Shown: piece after piece, positions 1,841-24,362 of the stretch
Position numbering within the stretch: position 1 is the stretch's first letter
Layout of the letters: each line of letters opens with the position of its first letter
Source of the DNA: Succinivibrionaceae bacterium WG-1
Lineage (GTDB): Bacteria > Pseudomonadota > Gammaproteobacteria > Enterobacterales > Succinivibrionaceae
DNA length: 35,856 bases
Reading direction: 5' to 3'
Assembly: GCA_000222855.1 (NCBI GenBank)
Contig: GL995195.1
Coordinates: 29,485 to 65,340, forward strand
Notes under the pieces: generated by a model
The model's input: only the letters and a program-made list of their open reading frames with translations
What the model was told of the DNA's origin: nothing
Database searches by the model: none
Made by a program: the position numbers and the translations under genes

Positions 1841-3075
1841 ATGAGTAACAAAAAGAAAATAATATGTGAATGTTGTGGGATTATCCTTGATACCCCAACC
1901 ACTTCTTCTAATTTTGTGGGCAAGTGTCCAAGATGTGGTAAGAAGTTAGTGTATTTACATAAACATTGGGTGGTGTATTCTTTTTGCTTTGCTATAACTA
2001 GTTTTCTTTTTGCGATTCTTGCTGATATTTTACCTTATTTAGAAATAAATTCATCAGGTATCACAAGTGGAATGAAGGTTCTAGATTACTTTGATGTGCT
2101 TGCTAATCAAAATTACACTATCATAAGTGTAATTATTTTACTATGTATGCAAGTCTTACCTTTATTCGTCTTACTGTGCATTATATTGACTGATTTAGCT
2201 TGTATTTTCTTTATAAAAAATAAAATTTTTTATTGTTACTAAGATTTTATAAGGTTGCGACTCATTGGGCCATGGTTGATGTCTTTTTAGTTGGAGTGCT
2301 AGTTAGTTTAGTTAAACTAGTGTCTTTAGTAGACGTTAGCTTTGGTGGTGGTTTTTTCTGTTTTATTATATTTGTAATATTTTATTTACTAGCTATTCAA
2401 AAATATAATGTTGGAAAAATTTGGAATTTCTTTGAACCTTATCCTAATTTAGGTTTTGCTGTTAAAAGCGGTATGATTGGTTATAAAAAAGGATTTTATG
2501 CTTGTCATACATGTAATGCTTTAGTTGATATAAAACAATCTCATACTTGTCCAAGGTGTGGTAGTCATGTTCATGAAGTAACACCATATTCAAATATTAA
2601 ATGCTTAGTGTTATCAATATCGGCGTTGTTTTTATATGTAGTATCAAATATTTATCCGATGATGATTACAACGTATTTGGCTAATGATACTCCTTCTACA
2701 ATTTTAGAAGGGGTTATAGTGCTATGGGATTTAGGTTCATATTTTGTGGCATTTGTAATTTTCTTTGCTAGTGTTTTTATTCCTATTTTTAAAATATTAG
2801 TACTTTTTTATTTATGTTATATAACTAAAAGGGTAAAAAGAACAAAGAATAAACGTAAATTAAGTTTACTATACGCTATTGTTGAATTTATTGGTAAATG
2901 GTCAATGATAGACGTTTTTGTAGTTGCAATTATGGCAACTATTGTACAGATAGGCAATTTAATGGTGATTTATCCAGGTAGTGCTGTAATATTATTTTCC
3001 GCTGTTGTTATTCTTACAATGTTAGCTGCTAATAGCTATGATTGTAGATTGTTGTGGCAACAATATAAAGATTAG
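1841..3075 (+). CDS. pqiA: Inner-membrane protein PqiA (one frameshift)
   Basis: PqiA, about 411 aa when the frame is repaired (E. coli about 417). It is the polytopic inner-membrane component of the PqiABC lipid-transport system. Two similar halves are visible. Each begins with a zinc-ribbon: 'CECCG...CPRCGKKL' near residues 9-34, and 'CHTCNALVD...CPRCGSH' in the second half. Each is followed by about four hydrophobic segments. As printed the frame breaks at 2222-2231 (AAAA then TTTTTT): the first part (1841-2242) runs into TAA, while the rest reads on in the next frame from about 2233. One extra base in this A/T run joins '..KNKIF' to 'LLLRFYKVATHWAMVDVF' and restores the protein. The rest is well conserved, so I treat this as one gene. 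pqiB follows after 13 bases. Confidence 0.88.
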
Positions 3076-5407: not shown

Positions 5408-6780
5408 TTATTTTCCAACACAAAATGTATTAAAAATATTGCCTAGTAAATCATCAGCTGTATATTCGCCTAAGATTTCATTTAAGCATTGTTGTGTGCT
5501 TCTTAATTCTTCTGCGGATAATTCAAACATTGATTGATTTTGTATCAATTCTATAGCTGTTTGGATGTGGTCTTCCGCTTTTTGAAGTGAAACAATATGT
5601 CTTCTTCTTGCAGAAAATACCCCTTCAGTGGAATTATCGTAACCTGCACATTGTTTTAAATGTTCTTTTATCACATCTAGACTGTTAGCATCTTTGGCAC
5701 TAATTTTTATAGATGCAATGTCAGTAAATTCTTTTGGTGGTACAAAATCAGTTACTAAATCTAATTTGTTATAAATAATACTAAAAGCTATTTTATTGTT
5801 AGTTTTATCTTTAATTAGATTAAATAAATTAATCTGTTCTTCGTAATCTTTTTGGGTAGAATCAAAAACAAAAAGAATACGATTAGCGGTTTCTATTTCT
5901 TTCCAAGCTCTATCGATACCAATTTTTTCTACAATGTCATTGGTATGATTACGTAGACCTGCGGTATCTATGATGTGTAGAGGCATGCCATCGATATTTA
6001 TTTGTTCTTTTAAAACGTCTCTGGTGGTGCCTGCTATATCTGTAACGATTGCAGATTCTTTGCCACTTAAAAGATTTAGAAGACTTGATTTGCCTGCATT
6101 AGGTTGGCCTGCTATTACGATTCTTAAACCTTCTTGTAGTAAAACACCTTGATTAGCTGTTTTTCTGATGGCTTCTAATTCTTTGGTCAGTTCATTTAAA
6201 CCAATTAACACTTGGCCATCATCTATGAAGTCGATGCTTTCATCTGGAAAATCTATGGTTGCTTCTACATAAGTTCTAAGCTTGATAAGTTTTTCATTTA
6301 GCTCTTTTATTTTATTTGAGAAAGCACCTTGTAATGAATTTATCGCACTAATAGCGGCTTTTTCACTTGTGGCGTTTATTAAGTCGGCAATGGCTTCTGC
6401 TTGAGTTAAGTCGATTTTGCCATTTAAAAACGCTCTTTCGGTAAATTCTCCAGCTTGAGCTTGTCTTGCTAAACCTGATTTTAAAATTTCATTAAGAAGT
6501 AGATCAAGAACTACACTACCGCCATGACATTGAAACTCAAGTACATCTTCGCCAGTGTAACTATGAGGTTTTTGGAAGTATATCGCAATACCTTCATCAA
6601 TAATTTTATCGTTACTACCTTTAAAAGGTAAATATTCTGCATATCTATTTTTAGGTAATTTTTTAGAATAAGATTGGCGATAGAAGCGCAATTATCACCT
6701 GATACACGAATAATTCCTACACCACCTGTTCCTGATGCGGTCGCTATCGCTGCTATTGTTTGATCATCTTTTATTAACAT
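5408..6780 (-). CDS. mnmE: tRNA-modification GTPase MnmE (one frameshift)
   Basis: MnmE (TrmE), about 457 aa after repair (E. coli 454). With MnmG it makes the cmnm5/mnm5 modification of wobble uridine-34 in several tRNAs. The N-terminal domain begins 'IAAIATASGTGGVGIIRVSG'; the central G domain has the P-loop 'GQPNAGKSSLLN', 'DIAGTTRD', 'DTAGLR' and 'NKLD'; the C-terminus is 'FNTFCVGK' with the catalytic Cys motif C[IV]GK. The printed frame breaks in a T6 run at 6659-6664 (A6 in the mRNA). One added base joins 'GDNCASIANLIL' to 'KKLPKNRYAEYLPFKG', matching the family closely. It follows yidC on the minus strand, the common gamma/betaproteobacterial order, but a terminator lies between them, so it may have its own promoter. 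Confidence 0.92.
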
Positions 6781-6859: not shown

Positions 6860-8490
6860 TTATTTTTTCTTTAAAGATAGACCTTTCTTTTCAAGAGCTC
6901 TATATATTAAGAATTGTTGAATAATAGAAACTGTATTAGATACAACCCAATAAATAGTTAAACCAGCAGGGAAGTAACAGAACATTGCTGTAAATACTAT
7001 TGGCATTGCTGTCATGATCTTCTTCTGCATTGGGTCTGTAATAGGGGTTGGAGACATCTTCTGTAATAAGAACATTGTTACGCCCATTAAAATAGGTAAT
7101 ACGAAATATGGGTCATGTACAGATAAGTCTCTAATCCATAATACAAATGGTTGATGACGTAATTCAGTTGATTCCATTAAAGTCCAATATAAAGCAATAA
7201 ATATTGGCATTTGAATCAATAATGGTAGACAACCACCTAATGGATTTGCATTTTCTCTCTTATACAACTCCATCATTTCCATGCTTAATCTTTGTCTATC
7301 ATTCTTATAGCGTTCTTTTAATTCGTTTAATTTTGGAGCAAGTAAACGCATCTTAGCCATAGAAACATATTGTTTCTTAGTAAGTGGATACATTAAACCA
7401 CGAACACAGAATGTTAAAATGATAATAGCAAGACCCCAGTTAGCAATATTTAAGTAACTTAAGCCTGCGTAAATCCACTTTAAGCATTTGAATAAGAATA
7501 CAGAAATAAAAGATAACCAACCGTAATCTACTGTTAAATCAAGATATTGCGCAGTTTGTTCCATTTCTTCTTGATTCTTTGGACCAATCCAAAGCTTGTT
7601 TTCTAAGCTAACAGAATCACCTGTAGATACTTTTAATGGTTCACTTACAATATTGATAACAGCGTTTTGGTTATTATTTTCACCATACATGTTTATGGTG
7701 TTTTTACCTGTTTGACCTACCCATGCTGCTACAAAGTAGTGTTGAATCATACTAATCCAACCACCGTTTTGAGATAAAACAGGGCGAACTGAATTTGAAG
7801 CAATATCATCAAATGATTCTTTAGTATATCTTGAACTATCAGTTGAGAAGGCAACTCCACGATAAGCAGAAGTTCCAAAAATACCAGAACTTAATTCTGG
7901 ATCAACTACAGATTGTTCTAATCCTGATTGAATTGATATTAAAGAGTTAGTATTAACATTAGCGATTTCATGTTTTACAGATACAGAGTGTGATCCACGG
8001 TTAAAGGTGTAGATTTTTTGTATGTAGTATCAGAACTATCAGTAAATGTTAATACCACTGATAAAGAATTTTCATTATCTGATAATTGGTATGAGTTTTG
8101 TTCTGTTTTATAAACAGGTTTAATTAAACTTTGAGTTTTTATACCATTGGCATCAGAAGTCATTAAAAGAGATGAATTTACAGCATACTTAAAGTTATCA
8201 TTGCTTCTAAGTAAATGGAAATTTTCATCTGAATCAATATCTTGTTTTTGGTCTTTTAAATCAGCTTTAACTATATCACCACCATTTAAATCTATTTCTA
8301 TATAGAATAAATCTGTATTAACAGTGATAATTTTAGAAATAACTTCTTCAGTTTTTCCTGCTGAAATAATTGAAGCTGTTGGGATATTTTGTTGGTTTAA
8401 GGCTGCTGTTTTATCACTATTCCAAGTGAAAAAAATGTAGGCCGTTACCATTAAAAATAAAATAAGTATGGTGTTACGTTGAGAATGCAT
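6860..8490 (-). CDS. yidC: Membrane protein insertase YidC (one frameshift)
   Basis: YidC, about 543 aa after repair (E. coli 548). It inserts and folds inner-membrane proteins, alone or with SecYEG. The first segment (8490-7975) has the N-terminal signal-anchor 'TILILFLMVTAYIFFTW' and the start of the periplasmic beta domain. The second carries 'GGWISMIQHYFVAAWV', 'LDLTVDYGWL', the conserved TM region 'WGLAIIILTFCVRGLMYPLT' with its functional Arg, and 'NPLGGCLPLLIQMPIF'. The two overlap in different frames. The junction is a T6 run at 8014-8019 (A6 in mRNA); one extra A joins 'TDSSDTTYKK' to 'IYTFNRGSHSVSVKHEIANV', which aligns with the E. coli periplasmic domain. YidC is essential in its relatives, so true loss is unlikely. 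yidD ends 9 bases upstream. Confidence 0.93.
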
Positions 8491-9611: not shown

Positions 9612-11498
9612 TTGTCTACGATGGATGAAAGCTTAAGCTTGGTTGTTGATTATTTAGATAATATACCTAATGCTTATGATGAAGTAAAAAAGAAACAATT
9701 ATTAGTTTATTTCAACTGTTCAAAAATCATCTCTAAAGGAAATGAGGTTTATTTAGTTGTTTTAAATGCACTTGTAAGAAATCAATTAAACAAAATATTT
9801 GGATTAATAGAAGAAGCGTTTAGAGAAATTTCTCAAAATGAAAAATTATCTTTATCTATTCAAGTTAATAAAGGTTTTTCTTTTAATGAAAAAATAGAAA
9901 ATAAACAAAAGAAAAATTATTCGTCTTTAAGTGATAATAGTTCTAAAGCGTCTACTTCAAATACAAAATCAGAATTTGATGAGTCAAATAATAGAACTTT
10001 GAGTAACAGTCATCTAAATAACGAATATTATGCTAATTCTAATAATCATTCTTCAAACAATAATGGTAGTTTTGTAAATAATAACGATCATTTTAATAAT
10101 CATTACTCTTTTTCTGCTCATGAAAACTCTAATAATCAAGGTCAATTTATAAATGAAAGTTTTGGTGGTAATGGTTATTTCGGGGCAAATCAAAATAATA
10201 ATTTAAATAATGTTAGATATACTAATAATGATTCTGAAGAAATTATTACTATATCTTCTAAATCTACGCTGATTGCTCCACCTGAAATGAACATATCTAA
10301 TGGTGGTATTAGCCCATCAATGTATGTTTCAGAATTTAACTCAAATCAAAATCATCATGACTTGGGAAGTGTTAGTAGCGCATTTTATGTTAATAATGCC
10401 ACTCATAAGCTTACTTTAGAAGAGTTAAAGAAAAACATTTTTTATAAACCTAATTCATATGCTAAAAGTAAGACTTTTGATAATTTTATTGAAGGTCCTA
10501 GTAATAGAATTATTTATGAAAATTGTAAAGAAATTGCTAGAAATCCAGGGGAAAGTAATTTAAATCCTTATCTTGTTTGTGGGGAACCTGGTTTAGGTAA
10601 GACTCATATATTGTCGGCAATAGCTAACTCTATTAGTGGTGAAAAGAAACAAATTAAATTAATGTATGTATCACTATTACAATTATATCAAGACTTTGTT
10701 TCTGCTATTACAGATAGAAAAGAAAAGAAAAATTCAAATAGTTCATTATTAAAAGATTTTAAAAATCTTTATAGAAGCTTAGATGTTTTATTAATAGATG
10801 ATATTCAAGAACTTGAAAAGGTTCCTGCTATTAGTGATGAATTTATTGCTTTAATGAATGATTTAAATAGTAATCAACAATTAGTTTTTGCATCTAGTAA
10901 ACATCCTTCTGAAATGCAAAATATAATTCCAAAATTACGTGATAGATTATCTAGTGGGGTTATTATGAAAATAGAACCTCCTGATGTTGATACAAGAAGA
11001 AGAATTATTCAACAAAAAGCAAAAGAAGTAAAATTAAGATTAGACAAATCGAGCATTGAATTTATAACTCTTAGTTTTAAGACTAATATTAGAAAACTAG
11101 AAGGTTATATAAAGACTATAGCTGCAAATGTTGGTAATAGAAAAGACATTGTAGTGGATGTTAATTTTGTTAAGAGTATTTTAAGTGATGATATCCATAA
11201 AAATGCCAAGATGGCAACTCTTGATAATATTAAGCAAACAGTAGCAGAATACTTTAAACTTACCACAAATGATCTAGATTCTAAGACACGTGCTAGAAAT
11301 GTTGTTCACCCTCGAATGATAGCAATGTATTTTTGTCGTGAATTAACACGTGAAAGTTTTCCTAGAATTGGCAAAGAATTTGGCGGTAGGGATCATACAA
11401 CAGTAATGAATGCTGTAAAAAAGATAAAATTATTAAAAGAAAAAGATGTTTCAATTAGAGAAGCATGTGACAACTTAAAGATTAGATTTACTAACTAG
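9612..11498 (+). CDS. dnaA: Chromosomal replication initiator DnaA, with very long Asn/Ser-rich linker
   Basis: DnaA, 628 aa against about 467 in E. coli; it melts the origin and loads DnaB. Domain I (about 1-85) is typical. Domain II, about residues 86-260, is an unusually long linker rich in Asn, Ser and His. Domain III has the Walker A 'GEPGLGKTH' (Gly324-Thr331; Glu-Pro replace the usual Gly-Val/Ala) and the Walker B 'LLIDDIQ' (Asp396-Asp397). Domain IV ends with the box-binding signature 'GGRDHTTVMNAVKKI' (DHTTV at 594-598). The TTG start at 9612 has AGGGTG five bases upstream; an in-frame ATG at 9621 is the alternative but is farther from it. The extra length is confined to the linker. 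dnaN follows after 17 bases. Confidence 0.95.
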   Translation: MSTMDESLSLVVDYLDNIPNAYDEVKKKQLLVYFNCSKIISKGNEVYLVVLNALVRNQLNKIFGLIEEAFREISQNEKLSLSIQVNKGFSFNEKIENKQKKNYSSLSDNSSKASTSNTKSEFDESNNRTLSNSHLNNEYYANSNNHSSNNNGSFVNNNDHFNNHYSFSAHENSNNQGQFINESFGGNGYFGANQNNNLNNVRYTNNDSEEIITISSKSTLIAPPEMNISNGGISPSMYVSEFNSNQNHHDLGSVSSAFYVNNATHKLTLEELKKNIFYKPNSYAKSKTFDNFIEGPSNRIIYENCKEIARNPGESNLNPYLVCGEPGLGKTHILSAIANSISGEKKQIKLMYVSLLQLYQDFVSAITDRKEKKNSNSSLLKDFKNLYRSLDVLLIDDIQELEKVPAISDEFIALMNDLNSNQQLVFASSKHPSEMQNIIPKLRDRLSSGVIMKIEPPDVDTRRRIIQQKAKEVKLRLDKSSIEFITLSFKTNIRKLEGYIKTIAANVGNRKDIVVDVNFVKSILSDDIHKNAKMATLDNIKQTVAEYFKLTTNDLDSKTRARNVVHPRMIAMYFCRELTRESFPRIGKEFGGRDHTTVMNAVKKIKLLKEKDVSIREACDNLKIRFTN

Positions 11499-11515: not shown

Positions 11516-12762
11516 ATGAAATTTAGCCTAAATAGAGAAGCATTTTTAAAACCTTTAGAACGTTTAGCAGATATATCTGTATCTAACCCTGAAGCAGAAA
11601 TGGCTATTCTTGCCAACATTTATTTGAGTGTTGAAAAAAACGATCCTAATAGTGAAATTAAAGATGCAAATTATCGTTTAAAGATGATTTGTGCTGACAA
11701 AGAATTACAAATGTATTCAAGTATTGGTTTGTTTTCCAATGATTTAGAAGAAGGTGAAACAACTGCCAATGTTAAAAAACTACTTGAAATTGTACGTTCC
11801 TTACCTGTTGGTACTACAATTGAAATTTCTGAAAATAATGGTTCTATGTTAATTAAAACTAACAAGACCAAAGCTAACTTATTAACTCAATCTCCTTATA
11901 AGTTCCCTGCTATTAGCACATATAATGCTTTATATGAAGCTAAACTTGATGAAGAAGAATTGGCAACAATGTTAAAACTAACTGATTTTTCTGTTAGTGC
12001 TGACAATTATCGTAAATTCTTACGTGGTATTAGATTTGAATTTGATGGTAATACCGTTTCTGTTTATGGTGCTGATGGTCATAGATTATCTTTGTATGAA
12101 GGTAAGATATTAGAACCTATTTCATATTTTGAAGAAAATCAAATTGATAATAGAGGTTTTATTTTACCTAAAAAACATCTAGTGAATTAAGAAAGTTGTT
12201 AGCTTTAAATGAAAAAAGCAAAGCTGCTAATAAAGATGTAAAAGTAAATGATGAAATTACTTTGTCAGTAGGGCAGAACTATATTTCAGCAACTATCTCT
12301 GGTATTACTATTGTTAGTAAGTTAATTGATGAATTATTCCCTTCAATTAGAAATCTAATTCCTACTAATTGTAATAGAATAATTTCAATTGAAAGAGATT
12401 ACTTTAAAGAAGTTTTAAGAAGAGCATTAATTTTATGTAACCCTAAAAATAATGCAATTGTATTTGAAGTTGTTGATAATTCTCTTAATATTCTTGCAAG
12501 TAATCCTCAACATGAAGATTTTGTTGAACATGTTGAATCAGGTTGTGAATGTGAAAATGACAATTTTAAAATGGCTTTTAATGCGCAATTTTTAATTGAC
12601 GTTTGCAACACTCTAACTTCTCCTAAAATTCAATTAGCAATGGCTAAGAGTTCTAGTAATTTAAAAATTACAACAATACAAGAAGAAAATGCAGATAATA
12701 ATGCTGCAAATATTTCTCGTGAAAAAAATGCTTGCTACATCATAAGCAGATTCCAATTGTAA
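11516..12762 (+). CDS. dnaN: DNA polymerase III beta clamp DnaN (one frameshift)
   Basis: Beta sliding clamp, about 415 aa after repair (E. coli 366), tethering Pol III and other factors to DNA. The first part (11516-12190) holds domain I and most of II, including 'RKFLRGIRFEFDGNTVSVYGADGHRLSLYEG' in pieces such as 'GADGHRLSL'. The frame breaks in the A6 run 12170-12175; one added A turns 'FILPKKHLVN-stop' into 'FILPKKTSSELRKLLAL', the expected motif, and joins the second part. Extra length comes from small inserts, e.g. 'NDPNSEIKDANYR' and the stretch after 'KITTIQEE'. The C-terminus ends 'YIISRFQL' rather than 'VVMPMRL'; a further one-base shift near 12725-12750 would end it 'PIVM', so a second error there is possible. 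Essential in bacteria, so inactivation is unlikely. Confidence 0.9.
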
Positions 12763-12812: not shown

Positions 12813-13898
12813 ATGCTATTAAAACAAATTAATATTACAAATTTTAGAAACATTATCCAAGAATCTATAGCACCAAGTGATGGTATAAACGTAATTGTTG
12901 GTGACAATGGTTCAGGGAAAACTTCAGTTTTAGAAAGTATTTATTACTTATCTCTTTGTAAATCTTTTCGTACAAAACATCATCAAAATATAGTTAATCA
13001 TGAGTCCAAGTCTTTATTATTATTTGCTAAATTAGCAGATAAAGAGTCTCATGAACACAAATTAGGAATTGAACGTCTAAGAGAAGGGGATATAAATATA
13101 AAATTTGATGGTGCGATTTTAGATAAGGTTTCTGAGATTGCTTCAAAATTCTGCGTGCAGTTTTTATCTCCTGATTCTTTTAATTTATTAGATGGTAGTC
13201 CACAACTTAGAAGAGCTTTTTTAGATTGGGGATGTTTTTATCATTTTACAGAATATGCAGAAATATATAAAAACTTTAAACATGTACTAAAACAAAGAAA
13301 TGCTTTACTACAGCAAAAAATAAACAATGATTATTTTTATTTTTGGAATGATAAGTATATAGAAATCAATGAAGCCTTAAATAAGATTAGAAAAGAATAC
13401 ATTAAAATTTTTAATCAAGAAGTACAAGATGTTCTCAAAATTTTCTTACCAAATAATGATTTAATAATAGAATTATCTCCGGGATTTAAAGAAGGAAATT
13501 TAAGAGAACAATTAAATTCAGCCATGAGTAGAGAGTTTGCTTTTGGATATTCATTATATGGATGTGGTAAAGCAGATATAAAGATTAGACAAAAGAATAT
13601 TGATGTAATTGATATTTTATCTAGAGGACAAAAAAAATTATTAGTTACAGCTTTAAAATTAGCTCAAGGAAAAATATATTCAAAATTATGTGGTAAACGA
13701 TGTGCTTTTTTAATTGATGATATATCTTCAGAATTAGATGAACAAAATTTAAATAAACTTTTTAGTTATATTGTTGAACTAAAAAATGATCATCAATTTT
13801 TTATAAGTTTACTTAATAATAATTCAAAATTCATAAAAGATAATAAAGATATCATTAAAGAGTTTTCAATTAAAACAGGTAATATTGAAACTAAATAA
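12813..13898 (+). CDS. recF: DNA replication and repair protein RecF
   Basis: RecF, 361 aa from the ATG at 12813 ('MLLKQINITNFRNI'), the usual length and start; an upstream in-frame start at 12774 would add 13 unconserved residues. RecF is an SMC-like ATPase that with RecO and RecR loads RecA at gaps. The Walker A is 'GDNGSGKTS', the ABC signature is 'LSRGQKKLLVTALKLAQGK' and the Walker B is 'CAFLIDDISSELDE'. It lies 50 bases after dnaN. The transcript probably ends at the palindrome directly downstream. Confidence 0.95.
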   Translation: MLLKQINITNFRNIIQESIAPSDGINVIVGDNGSGKTSVLESIYYLSLCKSFRTKHHQNIVNHESKSLLLFAKLADKESHEHKLGIERLREGDINIKFDGAILDKVSEIASKFCVQFLSPDSFNLLDGSPQLRRAFLDWGCFYHFTEYAEIYKNFKHVLKQRNALLQQKINNDYFYFWNDKYIEINEALNKIRKEYIKIFNQEVQDVLKIFLPNNDLIIELSPGFKEGNLREQLNSAMSREFAFGYSLYGCGKADIKIRQKNIDVIDILSRGQKKLLVTALKLAQGKIYSKLCGKRCAFLIDDISSELDEQNLNKLFSYIVELKNDHQFFISLLNNNSKFIKDNKDIIKEFSIKTGNIETK

Positions 13899-13903
13899 TT
13901 TCT

Positions 13904-13935
13904 AAAAACAATGTTTCACGTGAAACATTGTTTTT
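13904..13935. terminator. Perfect 32-bp palindrome after recF, likely terminator containing parS
   Basis: The sequence 13904-13935 is a perfect inverted repeat (AAAAACAATGTTTCAC and its complement) starting 6 bases after the recF stop. It is followed by further T-rich sequence, giving a long stem with an oligo-U tail. The parS core 13912-13927 is its centre, so the same bases may serve both as a terminator and as a ParB site. Confidence 0.7.
13912..13927. promoter_or_regulatory. parS site 1
   Basis: TGTTTCACGTGAAACA, a perfect match to the widely conserved bacterial parS palindrome bound by ParB. It is the first of four copies in this gap. Confidence 0.92.
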
Positions 13936-13939
13936 CTTT

Positions 13940-13957
13940 TTATTCTTATTCTTATTC
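13940..13957 (+). repeat. TTATTC x3 tandem repeat
   Basis: Three head-to-tail copies of TTATTC lie within a T/C-rich stretch just after the recF palindrome. No function is evident. Confidence 0.6.
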
Positions 13958-14203
13958 TTTTGTTTAAGTTTCTTTTTTTATTTAAAGAAAGAGTAGGGGA
14001 GATTGGGTTAAACTTAATTTTAATCTATACAGTTTTTTTATAATTAGTTCTATTATAACAGTTATAATTTAAATGCAAATGAGTATGTGTATATGTTGAT
14101 TTCATAAAAATTGAAAATAGTATTTTTCTAGTTTTATATTTCTAAAATTCCTGTCGTTAGTATCCTTAAATTTGTTTATTAAAATATTTAAAATTTGAAT
14201 TAT

Positions 14204-14219
14204 TGTTTCACGTGAAACA
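14204..14219. promoter_or_regulatory. parS site 2
   Basis: TGTTTCACGTGAAACA, identical to the other copies. The palindrome extends to 24 bases (14200-14223). Confidence 0.92.
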
Positions 14220-14378
14220 ATAACTTAATAAAATAATATCTACTTAAAAATAATTTTTAATTTAATAATTTTGAATTATTTTATTAAATTTTTCTGTTAC
14301 GGCGTGATTGAAATTTCTTATTTTATATTAAGAAGTTTTATGGTTTTAAAGCTACTTTTTATTATTTGAAAATTAAAA

Positions 14379-14394
14379 TGTTTCACGTGAAACA
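14379..14394. promoter_or_regulatory. parS site 3
   Basis: TGTTTCACGTGAAACA. The palindrome extends to 24 bases (14375-14398) with AAAA/TTTT flanks. Confidence 0.92.
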
Positions 14395-14536
14395 TTTTGT
14401 TTAGTAATTTATTTATAGATGAAAAATAAAATATTACCAAAATAATAACTAAAACTTAAAAAAGTACTTTTATTCTTATGACATAGATTTGGAAGTAATT
14501 TTAATTTGCTTAATTAAAATTTAAATAAAAAGTCAT

Positions 14537-14552
14537 TGTTTCACGTGAAACA
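14537..14552. promoter_or_regulatory. parS site 4
   Basis: TGTTTCACGTGAAACA. Here the palindrome stops at the 16-base core because the flanking bases do not pair, showing that the core rather than a hairpin is what is conserved. Confidence 0.92.
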
Positions 14553-14939
14553 TTTCTATATTTATACGTCTCGTAAATAAAATAATATTATTTTTATTAA
14601 AATTATAAATATCATTTTTATGAAAAATTCATGTTATACATTTTTATTTTTTCTTCTTATTGTTTTAAATTTTGTAATTTTTTAGGCAAAAAAAACTTAA
14701 AAATTTTCATGTAAAACATTAGATAAAATACTAAAAATTTATCCATAATTTTATTAAAAATAGTATTGTTAGAAGGTGCAAAATAATGTGTTTTTTGAGT
14801 GTTTTACTTGATGTAAAAATGGCTAAAAAAGTGAAAATATGATAAAATATATGCGGTTTTTAAATAAAGTTTAAATATATTTTTTTATCGAATTAGAAAA
14901 ATAATTATTGTGTTTTTTACAAAAGAGAATTGGTCTTAA

Positions 14940-17363
14940 ATGAGCGAAGAATCTAACTACAGTAGTGGATCTATAAAAGTTTTAAAAGGTCTAGAAGCAG
15001 TACGTAAACGTCCTGGTATGTATATTGGTGATACTGACGATGGTTCTGGTTTGCACCATATGGTATTTGAAGTTGTAGATAACTCCATCGACGAAGCTCT
15101 AGCAAAATATTGTGACACTATAAATGTAAAAATTCATGCAGATGGTTCTGTAAGTGTTAGAGATAACGGGAGAGGTATTCCTGTTGATATCCATCCTGAT
15201 GAAGGTGTATCTGCTGCAGAAGTTGTTATGACAGTTCTTCATGCTGGCGGTAAATTTGACCAAAATTCATATAAAGTTTCTGGTGGTCTTCATGGGGTTG
15301 GTGTATCTGTTGTTAACGCATTATCTGATAAATTACTTTTAACAATAAGACGTCAAGGACATGTATGGCAACAAACATATCTTGACGGTGGTCACCCAGA
15401 AGCTCCTTTAAAAGCTATTGGTGATACAGAAGAAACTGGTACAGAAGTAAGATTTTGGCCAAGTAAAGAAGTATTTAACAATAATACAGAATTTCATTTT
15501 GAAATCTTAGAAAAAAGATTAAGAGAATTATCATTCTTAAATTCTGGTGTGAAGATTGTTCTTGAAGATGAACGTGATCATAAAGAAGAAGTTTTCCACT
15601 ATGAAGGTGGTATTGAAGCATTTATAAGATATCTAAATAAAGGTAAAAATACTTTATACGATAGCGTGTTTGTTTGTTCTAAATATAATGAAGAACACGG
15701 TATAAATGTAGAAATCGCATTGCAATGGGTTGATTCATATAATGAATCTATATTCTGTTTTACTAATAATATACCACAAAAAGATGGTGGTACCCATAAA
15801 GATGGTTTTAAGAGAGCAATTGGTCTTACTGTAAAATCATATATTCAAAATGAAAAAGTTTTAACAAAGAAACAAAAAGTAGATATCAACTTTGATGACT
15901 GTCGCGAAGGGGTTGCTGCAATTGTTTCTGTTAAGGTTCCTGATCCAAAATTCTCTTCACAAACAAAAGATAAATTAGTTTCTTCTGAAGTTGCCGATGT
16001 TGTATCTTCAATTGTGAGAGAAAAGTTCGCGGAATATTTAATAGAAAATCCAGAAACAGCTAAAAAGATCGTTGAGAAAGTTGTTCAAGCTGCTATCACA
16101 AGAGAAGCGGTTAGAAAGGCTAGAGAAACATCTAAAAAGACTACAATAAGTTCATTACCTGGTAAACTTTCCGATTGTGTAAATAAAGATCCTGCTGTTA
16201 GAGAATTATATATAGTCGAAGGGGATTCGGCTGGTGGTTCTGCTAAGAATGGTCGTGAAGCTGAATTCCAAGCTATTTTACCTTTAAGAGGTAAGATTCT
16301 TAATGTTGAAAGAACAAGTTTCAATACCATGTTAAAGTCTGAAACAATAGGTACTTTAATTACAGCATTAGGATGTGGCATTGGTAAAGATATGTATAAT
16401 CCAGACAACTTTAGATATCATAAAGTTGTAATAATGACCGATGCCGACGTCGATGGTGCTCATATTAGAATTCTATTATTAACATTCTTCTATAGACAGA
16501 TGCCTGAAATCATTGAAAGAGGATATGTATACATTGCTCAACCACCATTGTATAAATATACTTCTGGTAAACAAGTTAAGTATATTCTTGATGAAAAAGA
16601 AAAGAATGAGTACGAAACTTCATTAGCATTAAATTCAGCTGAACTTTATGTTAATAGCCAAACTGCTCCAATTTTTGGTGAACAGTTGGAAAAGATTTTC
16701 TTAAAGTATGCTAACATTTTCTCTTTACTTCGTCGTTTAGATAGAAAATATCCTTCTGTGCTTACTAAGGAATTAATGTTTGTTGATGCCTTAACAGAAG
16801 AAAAAATGAAAGATGAAAATTTAGTAAGAGAATGGATTGCAGAATATCAAGCAAGATTACATTTACTTGAAAATCCTGGTTTAACATATACTGTTACTGT
16901 TGAATATAATCAAGAACAAGGAGTATATCTACCAAAAGTGTTAATGTCTCATTTTGGTGTAACACATACTTATTCTTTAGCTTATGAATTCTTTATGAGT
17001 TCTGATTATTATCAAATACTAACAGTTCAAAAAGACATTTATCAATTGCTAGAAAATGATGCTTATCTCATGATTAAGGATAAGCGTTATGATAACCTTA
17101 GAGACTTTGGTGTTGTTCATGATATATTGCTTAAACAAGCAATGAGTAATGTTGAAGTACAACGATACAAAGGTCTTGGTGAAATGAATGAGGATCAATT
17201 ATACGAAACTACAATGGACCCTGAAAATCGTATATTCTTAAAGGTTACAATAGATGATGCTATTGAAGCTGATAAGGCATTTTGCGATTTAATGGGTGAA
17301 GATGTAGCACCTCGTAAAGAATTTATTTCAGAAAATTCTCATTTAGCAGAAATTGATTCTTAA
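14940..17363 (+). CDS. gyrB: DNA gyrase subunit B
   Basis: GyrB, 807 aa (E. coli 804), the ATPase and Toprim subunit of gyrase. The GHKL ATPase domain shows 'EVVDNSIDEA', 'DNGRGIPVDIHP' and 'GGLHGVGVSVVNALS'. The Toprim domain has 'EGDSAGGSAKNGRE' with Glu427, 'PLRGKILNVE' and 'DADVDGAHIR' from Asp501. After this comes the roughly 170-residue insert typical of proteobacterial GyrB. The C-terminal 'RYKGLGEMNEDQLYETTMDP' is intact. No frameshift is seen. It stands apart from recF by the parS-bearing gap and so likely has its own promoter; no clear Shine-Dalgarno precedes the ATG. Confidence 0.98.
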   Translation: MSEESNYSSGSIKVLKGLEAVRKRPGMYIGDTDDGSGLHHMVFEVVDNSIDEALAKYCDTINVKIHADGSVSVRDNGRGIPVDIHPDEGVSAAEVVMTVLHAGGKFDQNSYKVSGGLHGVGVSVVNALSDKLLLTIRRQGHVWQQTYLDGGHPEAPLKAIGDTEETGTEVRFWPSKEVFNNNTEFHFEILEKRLRELSFLNSGVKIVLEDERDHKEEVFHYEGGIEAFIRYLNKGKNTLYDSVFVCSKYNEEHGINVEIALQWVDSYNESIFCFTNNIPQKDGGTHKDGFKRAIGLTVKSYIQNEKVLTKKQKVDINFDDCREGVAAIVSVKVPDPKFSSQTKDKLVSSEVADVVSSIVREKFAEYLIENPETAKKIVEKVVQAAITREAVRKARETSKKTTISSLPGKLSDCVNKDPAVRELYIVEGDSAGGSAKNGREAEFQAILPLRGKILNVERTSFNTMLKSETIGTLITALGCGIGKDMYNPDNFRYHKVVIMTDADVDGAHIRILLLTFFYRQMPEIIERGYVYIAQPPLYKYTSGKQVKYILDEKEKNEYETSLALNSAELYVNSQTAPIFGEQLEKIFLKYANIFSLLRRLDRKYPSVLTKELMFVDALTEEKMKDENLVREWIAEYQARLHLLENPGLTYTVTVEYNQEQGVYLPKVLMSHFGVTHTYSLAYEFFMSSDYYQILTVQKDIYQLLENDAYLMIKDKRYDNLRDFGVVHDILLKQAMSNVEVQRYKGLGEMNEDQLYETTMDPENRIFLKVTIDDAIEADKAFCDLMGEDVAPRKEFISENSHLAEIDS

Positions 17364-19103: not shown

Positions 19104-20500
19104 ATGTTTCAAAAAAATACTAATGAAGAATTTTCTTTATTTGGAATTACTTGGCCATTATTTTTAGATCTGGCATTACATACTTTAACTTTATCTCTAA
19201 ATTTATTGTTAGTTAGTAAAGTTTCTTTAGATGCCGTTGCAGAATTAACAGTTGGTAATCAAGTATTTGAATTTTGCATGATTGTTTTTAATTTTATTGG
19301 AGTTGGGGTGTGCGTTGTTACAGCCCAATCTTTAGGAGCAAAGAAATTAAATGATGTGACAAATATTGCGCACATTGGTATTTTGTCAAATATTATTATT
19401 GCAATATTAATAGGGATATTTATTTTTGTTTTAATGAATATATTTTAGACTTAATGCAAATTGGTCCAGATTTAAGAGCTGGAAGTCAAAAATATCTCCT
19501 AATTATTATATTAGCTTTAGTTCCTGAAGCACTAAATTTAGTATTGGCTTCAATACTAAGAGGTTTTGGATATACTAGAGAATCAATGTTAGTATCTCTT
19601 GCGGTAAATACTATTACAGTAGTTGGTAATTTAATTTTTCTTTTTGGATTCTTGGGATTACCAAAAATGGGAGTTGCAGGAGTTGCATTAAGTACTGTTA
19701 TTGGCAGAATAATCGGTACATTTTTACTATTTAAAATACTAAGTAATAGAACAAAAATTAAAGTAAAAATGAACCAAATGTTACTATGGAATAAAAATCT
19801 AGTAAAAAGAATTCTTGGTATTGGACTACCTGGTGCTGGTGAAAATTTATCATGGCACATGCAATTTATGGTGTGTACTTCATTTGTTGCAAGCTTAGGA
19901 GATATATATTTATCAACTCATGCAATATACTTCCAAATTTGTATTTTTATAATGTTATTTGCGCAATCTTTGGCTATGGGAACAGAGGTTATTATTGGTC
20001 ATTATGTTGGAGCTTTTAAATTACGTAAGGTTTACAATCGTTTACTAAAAAGTTTAAAAATAGGATTTCTATGTACGATTATTATTGCATTAGGTAATGC
20101 GTTTGTTTTTGGAAAACCTTTGTTATCATTAATTTCAGATGATAAAGAAGTTTTAGAAATAGCTAAAAATCTCTTTCTGTTATCAATAATAATGGAGCCT
20201 GGTAGAATATTTAATATTATTGTTATAAACTCTTTACGCGCCACAGGAGATGCAAAATTTCCTTTGGTGATGGCATTAATATCAATGTGGGGTATTTCTA
20301 TTCCATTGGGGTATTTTTTAGGTATATATTGTGAATTAGGATTGCTAGGTATATGGATAGGTTTCTGTGCTGATGAATGGTTCCGAGGCATTAGCATGTA
20401 TATTCGTTGGAAAAGTCGTATTTGGGAAAAGAAACTTGTCTTAACTAAACGACCTAATCTATATCAATTTGCACATCAAAAATTAGTAAATGGGAAATAA
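19104..20500 (+). CDS. MATE-family efflux protein (one frameshift)
   Basis: Multidrug and toxin extrusion (MATE) family inner-membrane antiporter, about 465 aa after repair, with about 12 hydrophobic segments. Typical features are 'GITWPLFLDLALHTLTLSLNLLLV' in the first helix region, 'LASILRGFGYTRESMLVSL' and 'NSLRATGDAKFPLVMALI', the paired 'R..GD/T..' loops of the two halves. The substrate cannot be inferred. The frame breaks at the T4 run 19443-19446: the first part stops at TAG, and one added T gives 'MNIFLDLMQIGPDLRAGSQKYL' and joins the second part. T4 is a short run for a sequencing error. The 3' end nearly abuts the YhcH-like gene, so they are probably co-transcribed. Confidence 0.85.
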
Positions 20501-22024: not shown

Positions 22025-22773
22025 ATGTCTGATATTAGACTTTCTGCAGAACAATTAAATCATAGATATCGTGGTATCCGTGGTTTATATGGTGATGAAA
22101 ATTTTGCAAAATTGCAAAGTAAGCATGTTTGTGCCATAGGATGTGGTGGTGTTGGTTCTTGGGGAATTGAATGTTTAGCAAGAACAGGGGTTGGCCATAT
22201 AACTATTATTGACCATGATACAGTTGATGATACCAATTGTAATCGTCAAGTTCCTGCGTTAAATTCGACTATTGGTCAATATAAAGCAGATGTATTAGCA
22301 GCAAGATTAAGAGATATAAATCCGAATATTGTTGTGGAAACAAAAAAATTCTATTAACCAAAGAAAATATATCTCAAGAAGTGCCATGGAACGCAGATGT
22401 TTTTATTGATGCAATAGATGATATTGATGCTAAGTCTGCTATTGTTGATTATGCTTTAAAGCATGGAAAAAATATGATTACCGCAGGTGGGGCCGCTGGT
22501 AAAACCAATCCTTCTTTAGTAAAAAGCGCAGATTTAGTACAAGCAACTCATGACCATTTGTTAAGAAAACTTAGAACTGTATTAAGAAAAGAATATGGAT
22601 ATAGTAAATTAAAGAAAAAATATCATATTCCGGTTATATATTGTGCACAAGAACCACATATTTCAGATAGATCTTTAAATGATGTTCCTATTTATGGAGC
22701 AAGTATGTGTGTGACAGCAGTAGTAGGTTTAAATATTGCAGCTTGGGTATTAAATAAGCTACAGGAACAATAA
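22025..22773 (+). CDS. tcdA: tRNA threonylcarbamoyladenosine dehydratase TcdA (one frameshift)
   Basis: TcdA (CsdL/YgdL), about 249 aa after repair (E. coli 268), an E1-like ThiF-fold ATPase that cyclises t6A37 of ANN-decoding tRNAs. The N-terminus is typical: 'RYRGIRGLYGDENFAKLQ', then the nucleotide-binding 'AIGCGGVGSWGIECLARTG' and 'IDHDTVDDTNCNRQVPAL'. The second half has 'DVFIDAIDDIDAK' and 'ITAGGAAGKTNPSLV', ending 'VTAVVGLNIAAWVLNKL'. The frame breaks in the A7 run 22342-22348; one more A joins '..VVETKK' to 'ILLTKENISQEVPWNADVF'. It starts a near-gapless group with the zinc-finger protein and rep. Confidence 0.93.
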
Positions 22774-22775
22774 AA

Positions 22776-24362
22776 ATGCAAGATCATAGACTTATTGAAT
22801 TTTTAAAAGGACAAATTGTTAAATTTTTAAATTTAAACAATATTGATATTTCTACAGGTTATTTTAAATGTCTAAATCCTAATCATAATGATTCCAAGAA
22901 TTCAATGAGTTATGATGCAAAACAACAAGTTGTTCATTGTTATGGGTGTGGATGTTCTTATAATATTTTTGATTTAATAGGAATCTTTTATGGCATATAC
23001 GATTTTGAAAAACAAGTTGCCTATGCCCAAAAAATATTGCTAGATAATAAGGAAAATAATAAGTTATCCACAACTTTATATGCAGATAAAGATTATACAA
23101 TTCAAGTGCGTTCAATTAACGTTGAAGATGTTCAAGTTGAACATGAAAGTTATGTCGAACAATGTTTTAATCAGATATATGATACAGATCTCTTTGAAAA
23201 ATATCATATTTCCTTAGATTTAGTAAACAAATTAAAAATAGGTTTTGAACCTTGTTTTAACTTTGATAAAAAAGAAGCCCAAGCAGTTATATTTCCTATT
23301 AGTGCGCAGAATTTTATTGCTTTAGATTTTAATGAAGGTAATTATTTCAATAGAAGTAATGATATTTTTGGAAAGATAAATAATGCAGATAAGTCTTTAT
23401 TTATAGCAAAAGATGAATTTGAAGCTTTGTTATTAATCAATTTGGGTTTTTCTGCAATTGCTATTCATGAATTGTCGCAAGTTGATAATATTTTGAATGT
23501 TGTTGATAATTATCTTGTTAATAACATTTATATATTGATTGATTCTGAAGACTATAATTTAAATTTATGTGAATCTATATTTAATGTCACAAATGAAGAT
23601 AATTTAAAATCTACAATTATTGATTTATCTTTTCCATACAATTCACTAAAAGAGTTTGCCCTAAGAGATATCCACAAGCTAAAAGATAGAATAGAACATA
23701 TATCGACTTTACTTTTATCTAAAACAAAACAGTTAAAATTAAATACCGAAAAATTGTACGGTGTTGATAAAGAAGGTTTCTTAAATTTTGATTTAGAAAA
23801 AACTATTTTTTACGGAATTGTTTGTGATGCCAATATTAGACGTAAATTTATAGCTCATTGGTTATTATCAACAGAACGTAGATTTTTATTATGTTCTTCT
23901 TATGGCGATTGGGATATTTTTGGTTCTTTAATGAATGATAAAATCATGAAATATGGCATGTCATATAAACAAAGACTAAGCAAGATTTCATTATTAGAAA
24001 TTAAGGAATCTGCCATTGAAACAGCTAATGGCATTGTAAATTATTTCTTAGCTCAAAAGATTAAATTACAGTCAAATACTGATTTGATAATTAATATCAT
24101 AGGTCGAAAACCTGAATATACTTTAGAGCTTTTTAATATATTAAGTAAAGAATTAAAAATATATGATATTGCGACTATTGTATGTGCCACCAAAGATCAA
24201 TTAGCGATATTAAAAGAATTTTGTAGTTACCAAATAAATATGACTAAAGTAAAGATTGATGATGAAGAAAATCCTTATAATGATGATGCTATAAAGTTCG
24301 TATGTACTTCATTCTTAGGTGAAAAGAATGATTCTTATATTTCTGTAGAGGATTTTGAATAA
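22776..24362 (+). CDS. CHC2 zinc-finger / Toprim-like protein of unknown function
   Basis: 528 aa. Residues 32-58 form a CHC2-type zinc finger (Cys32, His37, Cys55, Cys58, in 'CLNPNHNDS...HCYGCG'), as in DnaG and phage primases. It is followed by a linker and 'YHISLDLVNKLKIGFEP...VIFPI', the same arrangement as primase-like proteins. Residues about 206-260 look like a Toprim fold: 'KSLFIAKDEFEALLLINLGF' fits '..EGxxDALx..G', but the catalytic Glu position reads Lys/Asp (residues 211-214 Ala-Lys-Asp-Glu), and 'ILIDSED' stands in for DxD. The C-terminal 250 residues have no Walker A or other motif I recognise. It is not the normal DnaG (too short, no RNAP-basic domain). It sits 3 bases after tcdA and directly before rep, so it is likely co-expressed with the helicase. 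Confidence 0.65.
   Translation: MQDHRLIEFLKGQIVKFLNLNNIDISTGYFKCLNPNHNDSKNSMSYDAKQQVVHCYGCGCSYNIFDLIGIFYGIYDFEKQVAYAQKILLDNKENNKLSTTLYADKDYTIQVRSINVEDVQVEHESYVEQCFNQIYDTDLFEKYHISLDLVNKLKIGFEPCFNFDKKEAQAVIFPISAQNFIALDFNEGNYFNRSNDIFGKINNADKSLFIAKDEFEALLLINLGFSAIAIHELSQVDNILNVVDNYLVNNIYILIDSEDYNLNLCESIFNVTNEDNLKSTIIDLSFPYNSLKEFALRDIHKLKDRIEHISTLLLSKTKQLKLNTEKLYGVDKEGFLNFDLEKTIFYGIVCDANIRRKFIAHWLLSTERRFLLCSSYGDWDIFGSLMNDKIMKYGMSYKQRLSKISLLEIKESAIETANGIVNYFLAQKIKLQSNTDLIINIIGRKPEYTLELFNILSKELKIYDIATIVCATKDQLAILKEFCSYQINMTKVKIDDEENPYNDDAIKFVCTSFLGEKNDSYISVEDFE

Follow-up and report, generated by a model that had tools for sequence, protein, structure and literature searches.

A cluster of four parS palindromes between recF and gyrB in Succinivibrionaceae bacterium WG-1 as the probable main centromere of a chromosomal ParABS system

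The recF-gyrB gap and its four palindromes

The window analyzed here, a stretch of 35,856 nucleotides from the draft genome of Succinivibrionaceae bacterium WG-1, contains the gene row dnaA-dnaN-recF-[parS]-gyrB, which begins with dnaA (9612..11498, plus strand). Between recF (12816..13898, plus strand; TIGR00611, 304.7 bits against a cut-off of 172) and gyrB (14940..17363, plus strand; PRK14939, 1139.7 bits) lies a gap of 1041 bases (13899..14939; no strand assigned) that has a GC content of 17.6% and is free of ORFs, the longest open frame being at most 48 codons. An Rfam search of the window returned two tRNAs only, both outside this gap, and a hidden RNA gene between recF and gyrB was rejected on that basis. 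Elsewhere in the window, a pqiA-like gene, mnmE, yidC, dnaN, a MATE gene, and a ThiF-like gene are each divided between two ORFs (stretches 1841-3075, 5408-6780, 6860-8490, 11516-12762, 19104-20500, and 22025-22773); the splitting of core genes suggests indel errors of the assembly, not real pseudogenes.

The gap contains four copies of the 16-mer TGTTTCACGTGAAACA, none with a mismatch, and each matches the 16-bp parS palindrome TGTTNCACGTGNAACA. The copies, to which no strand is assigned, lie at 13912..13927 (site 1, the center of a perfect 32-bp palindrome at 13904-13935), 14204..14219 and 14379..14394 (sites 2 and 3, each within a 24-bp palindrome), and 14537..14552 (site 4, a palindrome of 16 bp), with spacings of 292, 175, and 158 bases. 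Positions and spacings agree exactly with those given in an earlier, sequence-only reading of the window. No further site within two mismatches of TGTTTCACGTGAAACA was found anywhere in the window, and 100 shuffled versions of the window gave at most two matches even when up to three mismatches were allowed. The sequence ATTTTCATGTAAAACA at 14703..14718 (unstranded) is a possible decayed parS, although with four mismatches it may be a chance match.

The palindrome around site 1 starts 5 bases past the recF stop codon and is followed by a T-rich tract, and on the plus strand 13904..13935 is predicted to act as an intrinsic terminator for recF (fold of -14.3 kcal/mol, z of -6.7). No other site in 13700-15000 resembles a terminator, 0.1 being expected there, and site 1 probably has the additional function of terminating recF transcription. 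This feature, together with the extension of sites 2 and 3 to 24 bp, is what could be cited for reading all of the palindromes as transcription terminators or cruciform-forming repeats instead of ParB targets. Such a reading is very improbable: site 1 alone scores as a terminator, and the 16-mer core, that of the universal parS, does not vary, whereas the flanks do. Across 91 sites from the family, only the first base outside the core shows clear symmetry (z of 5.5), and the next two show it more weakly, so a family-wide palindrome extending past the 16-mer was rejected.

Genome-wide rarity and a fifth site

Five exact copies of TGTTTCACGTGAAACA were found in the 2.95-Mb draft genome, four in the gap and one elsewhere, a total that could be slightly higher in an assembly of 43 contigs with apparent frameshifts. 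The chance expectation is 0.0007 to 0.0009 copies per genome by a Markov estimate that drew on 165 kb of the same genome. At two mismatches, only two unrelated sites occur genome-wide, and a reversed control pattern of TGTTTCACGTGAAACA had no match in the genome. The fifth copy is on another contig (C3), just past the end of a MATE-type gene adjoining coaD. It is probably also origin-proximal, since in three relatives coaD lies about 14 kb (G066) or 133 to 138 kb (the other two) from recF.

Several identical copies close together could also be a mobile or dispersed repeat that matches parS by coincidence. With only five copies in the genome, no flanking unit common to them, and a cluster that is syntenic across genera, this explanation can practically be dismissed. 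The genome-wide search thus bears out the sequence-only reading on this point, as the palindrome is not a common repeat spread evenly over the chromosome.

The parA-parB operon and the likely replication origin

The trans-acting partners of parS are encoded on the same contig (C1) but outside the window, at C1:18977-20695 on the minus strand. The gene order there, mnmG-rsmG-parA-parB-atp, is the usual, classical order of an oriC-linked operon. ParB (306 amino acids; C1:18977-19897) has the N-terminal CTPase, helix-turn-helix, and C-terminal dimerization domains, with PF02195 (ParB_N), PF17762 (HTH_ParB), and PF23552 (ParB_C) all over the cut-off, and scores 180.8 bits against TIGR00180. Both the GERRW box and the ENIQR-DLN box are present, and the protein aligns through the CTP-binding boxes with solved structures of chromosomal ParB/Spo0J proteins, such as 7bnk and 1vz0. 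ParA, in the same operon near mnmG and rsmG, is a Walker-type protein of the AAA_31 family. A second match, to parB_part on contig C20, scored under the cut-off and comes from a ParB-N/methylase-like protein whose surroundings are phage-like. The cluster had been described as remote from any visible parAB genes; this is correct for the window, where parAB are missing because it ends too early to include them, but not beyond it, as parA lies 22.7 kb upstream of the cluster. The absence of parB, which would have counted against the identification of the 16-mer as the canonical ParB target, does not apply, and the intact parA-parB operon and the lack of dispersed copies both support that identification.

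On contig C1, cumulative GC skew is lowest at position 23,300, on the border of a 0.8-kb gap upstream of mnmG; a segment of about 130 bases in this gap contains three 9-mers that resemble DnaA boxes. The origin is therefore likely to lie upstream of mnmG, between parAB, about 3 kb to one side, and the parS cluster (C1:43396-44036), about 20 kb to the other. An origin between rpmH and dnaA was also considered, but no cluster of DnaA boxes occurs there, and both the skew and the box-like 9-mers favor the position upstream of mnmG. Sites of the parS type are thus rare and concentrated near the likely oriC, four of the five copies lying within about 20 kb of the skew minimum. In the single-contig relative G066, the skew is lowest near 1,950,500, and the parS cluster of that genome is about 14 kb away.

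The parS neighborhood in other Succinivibrionaceae

RecF places the organism near Ruminobacter within the Succinivibrionaceae, with about 44% identity to named relatives. A ParB was found in 51 of 57 genomes of the family, and the 16-mer of the window, with one mismatch allowed, in only 14 of the 57. A switched ParB target in the genera without this 16-mer was considered and rejected: within the recF/gyrB stretches examined, the other genera that were read carry TGTTCCACGTGGAACA, which is two mismatches from the pattern searched and is no new target.

Among 23 other family genomes in which the stretch was read, parS sites occur beside recF or gyrB in 18 (2 to 17 sites with at most one mismatch), and one more has parS at a contig end that should adjoin gyrB. 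The remaining four have no site within one mismatch in the stretch read, which in three of them is cut off by the end of the contig shortly past gyrB. The cluster in most genera is between gyrB and glyS (gyrB-parS-glyS). It lies between recF and gyrB in WG-1, G005, and G007, whereas the Ruminobacter cluster comes after the end of recF or overlaps it, with gyrB elsewhere. On the RecF tree, the seven genomes with parS straight after recF, including WG-1, form one branch (support 99/99), and a single change is needed to account for the recF-side position. The spacings between sites are not conserved among the relatives. In records from other families of the order, parS likewise occurs at the end of recF, in the recF-gyrB interval, past gyrB, or beside glyS.

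The comparison of the gap in related genomes therefore finds clusters in the same neighborhood, with the exact side differing by clade, and the earlier suggestion that a place between recF and gyrB is special mostly dissolves: recF, gyrB, and glyS mark the usual location of parS both in the Succinivibrionaceae and in other families of the order. This neighborhood is a long-lived home of parS, and the exact side changes between lineages. The cluster in WG-1 is a known kind of centromere in a lineage-specific position, unlike that in most of its relatives. Within a limited collection of literature, no work on parS in the Succinivibrionaceae was found.

Two relatives show further features of the neighborhood. 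In G005, the recF-gyrB gap (L037:6021-11631) is 5.6 kb long, has no start-to-stop ORF of at least 80 amino acids and no Rfam match, and contains eight parS-like sites (two exact and six with one mismatch). In a Ruminobacter relative, parS sites (L039:8542 and 9220) lie inside the 3' ends of recF and a neighboring methyltransferase-like gene, and both proteins gain an MFHVEHN tail from them.

The position of the cluster directly upstream of gyrB in WG-1 might suggest that the sites are mainly local regulators, with ParB bound in the gap controlling the expression of gyrB (and recF) and segregation being secondary. In Pseudomonas aeruginosa, an excess of ParB does lower expression around parS1-4, gyrB included, but strains without ParB or functional parS show increased expression of only PA0010-PA0015 and not of the dnaA-gyrB genes (PMC5521831). 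Most members of the family, moreover, have the cluster downstream of gyrB or spread over kilobases, and the Ruminobacter sites stay with recF although gyrB is elsewhere. A mainly regulatory role is accordingly unlikely.

Condensins in the family

ScpA was found in none of the 57 family genomes, and Smc had no match at 1e-30 in 19 family genomes among the best 15 candidates scored per genome; an Smc-ScpAB for which ParB-parS could act as the loading site was likewise not found encoded in WG-1. MukB proper is present in other families of the order and was not found in the Succinivibrionaceae, where weak MukB matches proved, in the cases inspected, to be JetC/MksB of Wadjet-type operons. DUF3375 of Wadjet/MksBEF-type operons occurs in 38 of 57 family genomes. 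WG-1 has a Wadjet-like jetABCD set on contig C41 (L095:4641-12058), the jetA/mksF-like first gene of which is split between two frames in the assembly. In G012, recF and gyrB are separated by the insertion of a jetABC/mksFEB-like operon that has no jetD next to it (L080:2872-8632).

The family thus appears to be without both Smc-ScpAB and MukBEF. We consider the chances roughly even that it keeps a multisite ParB-parS centromere at a conserved neighborhood despite the loss of both, with only patchy Wadjet/MksBEF-type complexes left, such that the cluster serves ParA-driven segregation without the usual condensin client and has changed its place relative to gyrB once, between the gyrB-glyS and recF-gyrB sides. 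Should complete genomes confirm the absence, ParB-parS would work in this family without that client, making the family a natural test of what ParB-parS does when there is no condensin to load.

Proposed working of the centromere and comparison with known systems

The four palindromes are almost certainly the main centromere, or parS cluster, of a chromosomal ParABS system of the ordinary type because of the sites themselves, their rarity, the oriC-proximal position, the intact parA-parB operon, and the conserved syntenic neighborhood in relatives. In the accepted mechanism, ParB loads at parS with CTP and spreads, and ParA moves the resulting complex (PMC7022226). We infer ParB binding, spreading, and segregation at this cluster from known ParABS biology. 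ParB, encoded about 23 kb away across the predicted oriC, would load on each parS as a CTP-dependent clamp and spread over the AT-rich gap and the flanking genes to form one partition complex, and ParA would part the two sister complexes shortly after replication of the origin region. Having several sites may provide redundancy and a larger complex, and site 1 probably doubles as the end of recF transcription. For an understudied gut and rumen family, the locus allows the centromere and the likely origin to be annotated cleanly.

The ParABS system of P. aeruginosa is similar in that four oriC-proximal sites in the dnaA-dnaN-recF-gyrB neighborhood matter (PMC5521831; PMC7022226). Its sites have the form TGTTCCACGTGGAACA and are partly intragenic, parS1/2 being inside recF (PMC5521831), whereas those of WG-1 are all TGTTTCACGTGAAACA and all intergenic; unlike in P. 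aeruginosa, no Smc-ScpAB partner was found in WG-1. Bacillus subtilis, Hyphomonas neptunium, and chromosome I of Vibrio cholerae share the same core, TGTTNCACGTGAAACA (PMC7022226, Table 1), but differ from WG-1 in the number and spread of sites, B. subtilis having 10. Closer to WG-1, other Succinivibrionaceae (genus g7 with the single-contig G066, Ruminobacter [g11], and others) likewise have a dense oriC-proximal cluster of 16-bp parS sites beside recF/gyrB. Most of them differ in having the cluster in the gyrB-glyS position and a C at the variable position of the site, whereas WG-1 is a member of the clade in which parS occupies the recF-gyrB interval or immediately follows recF.
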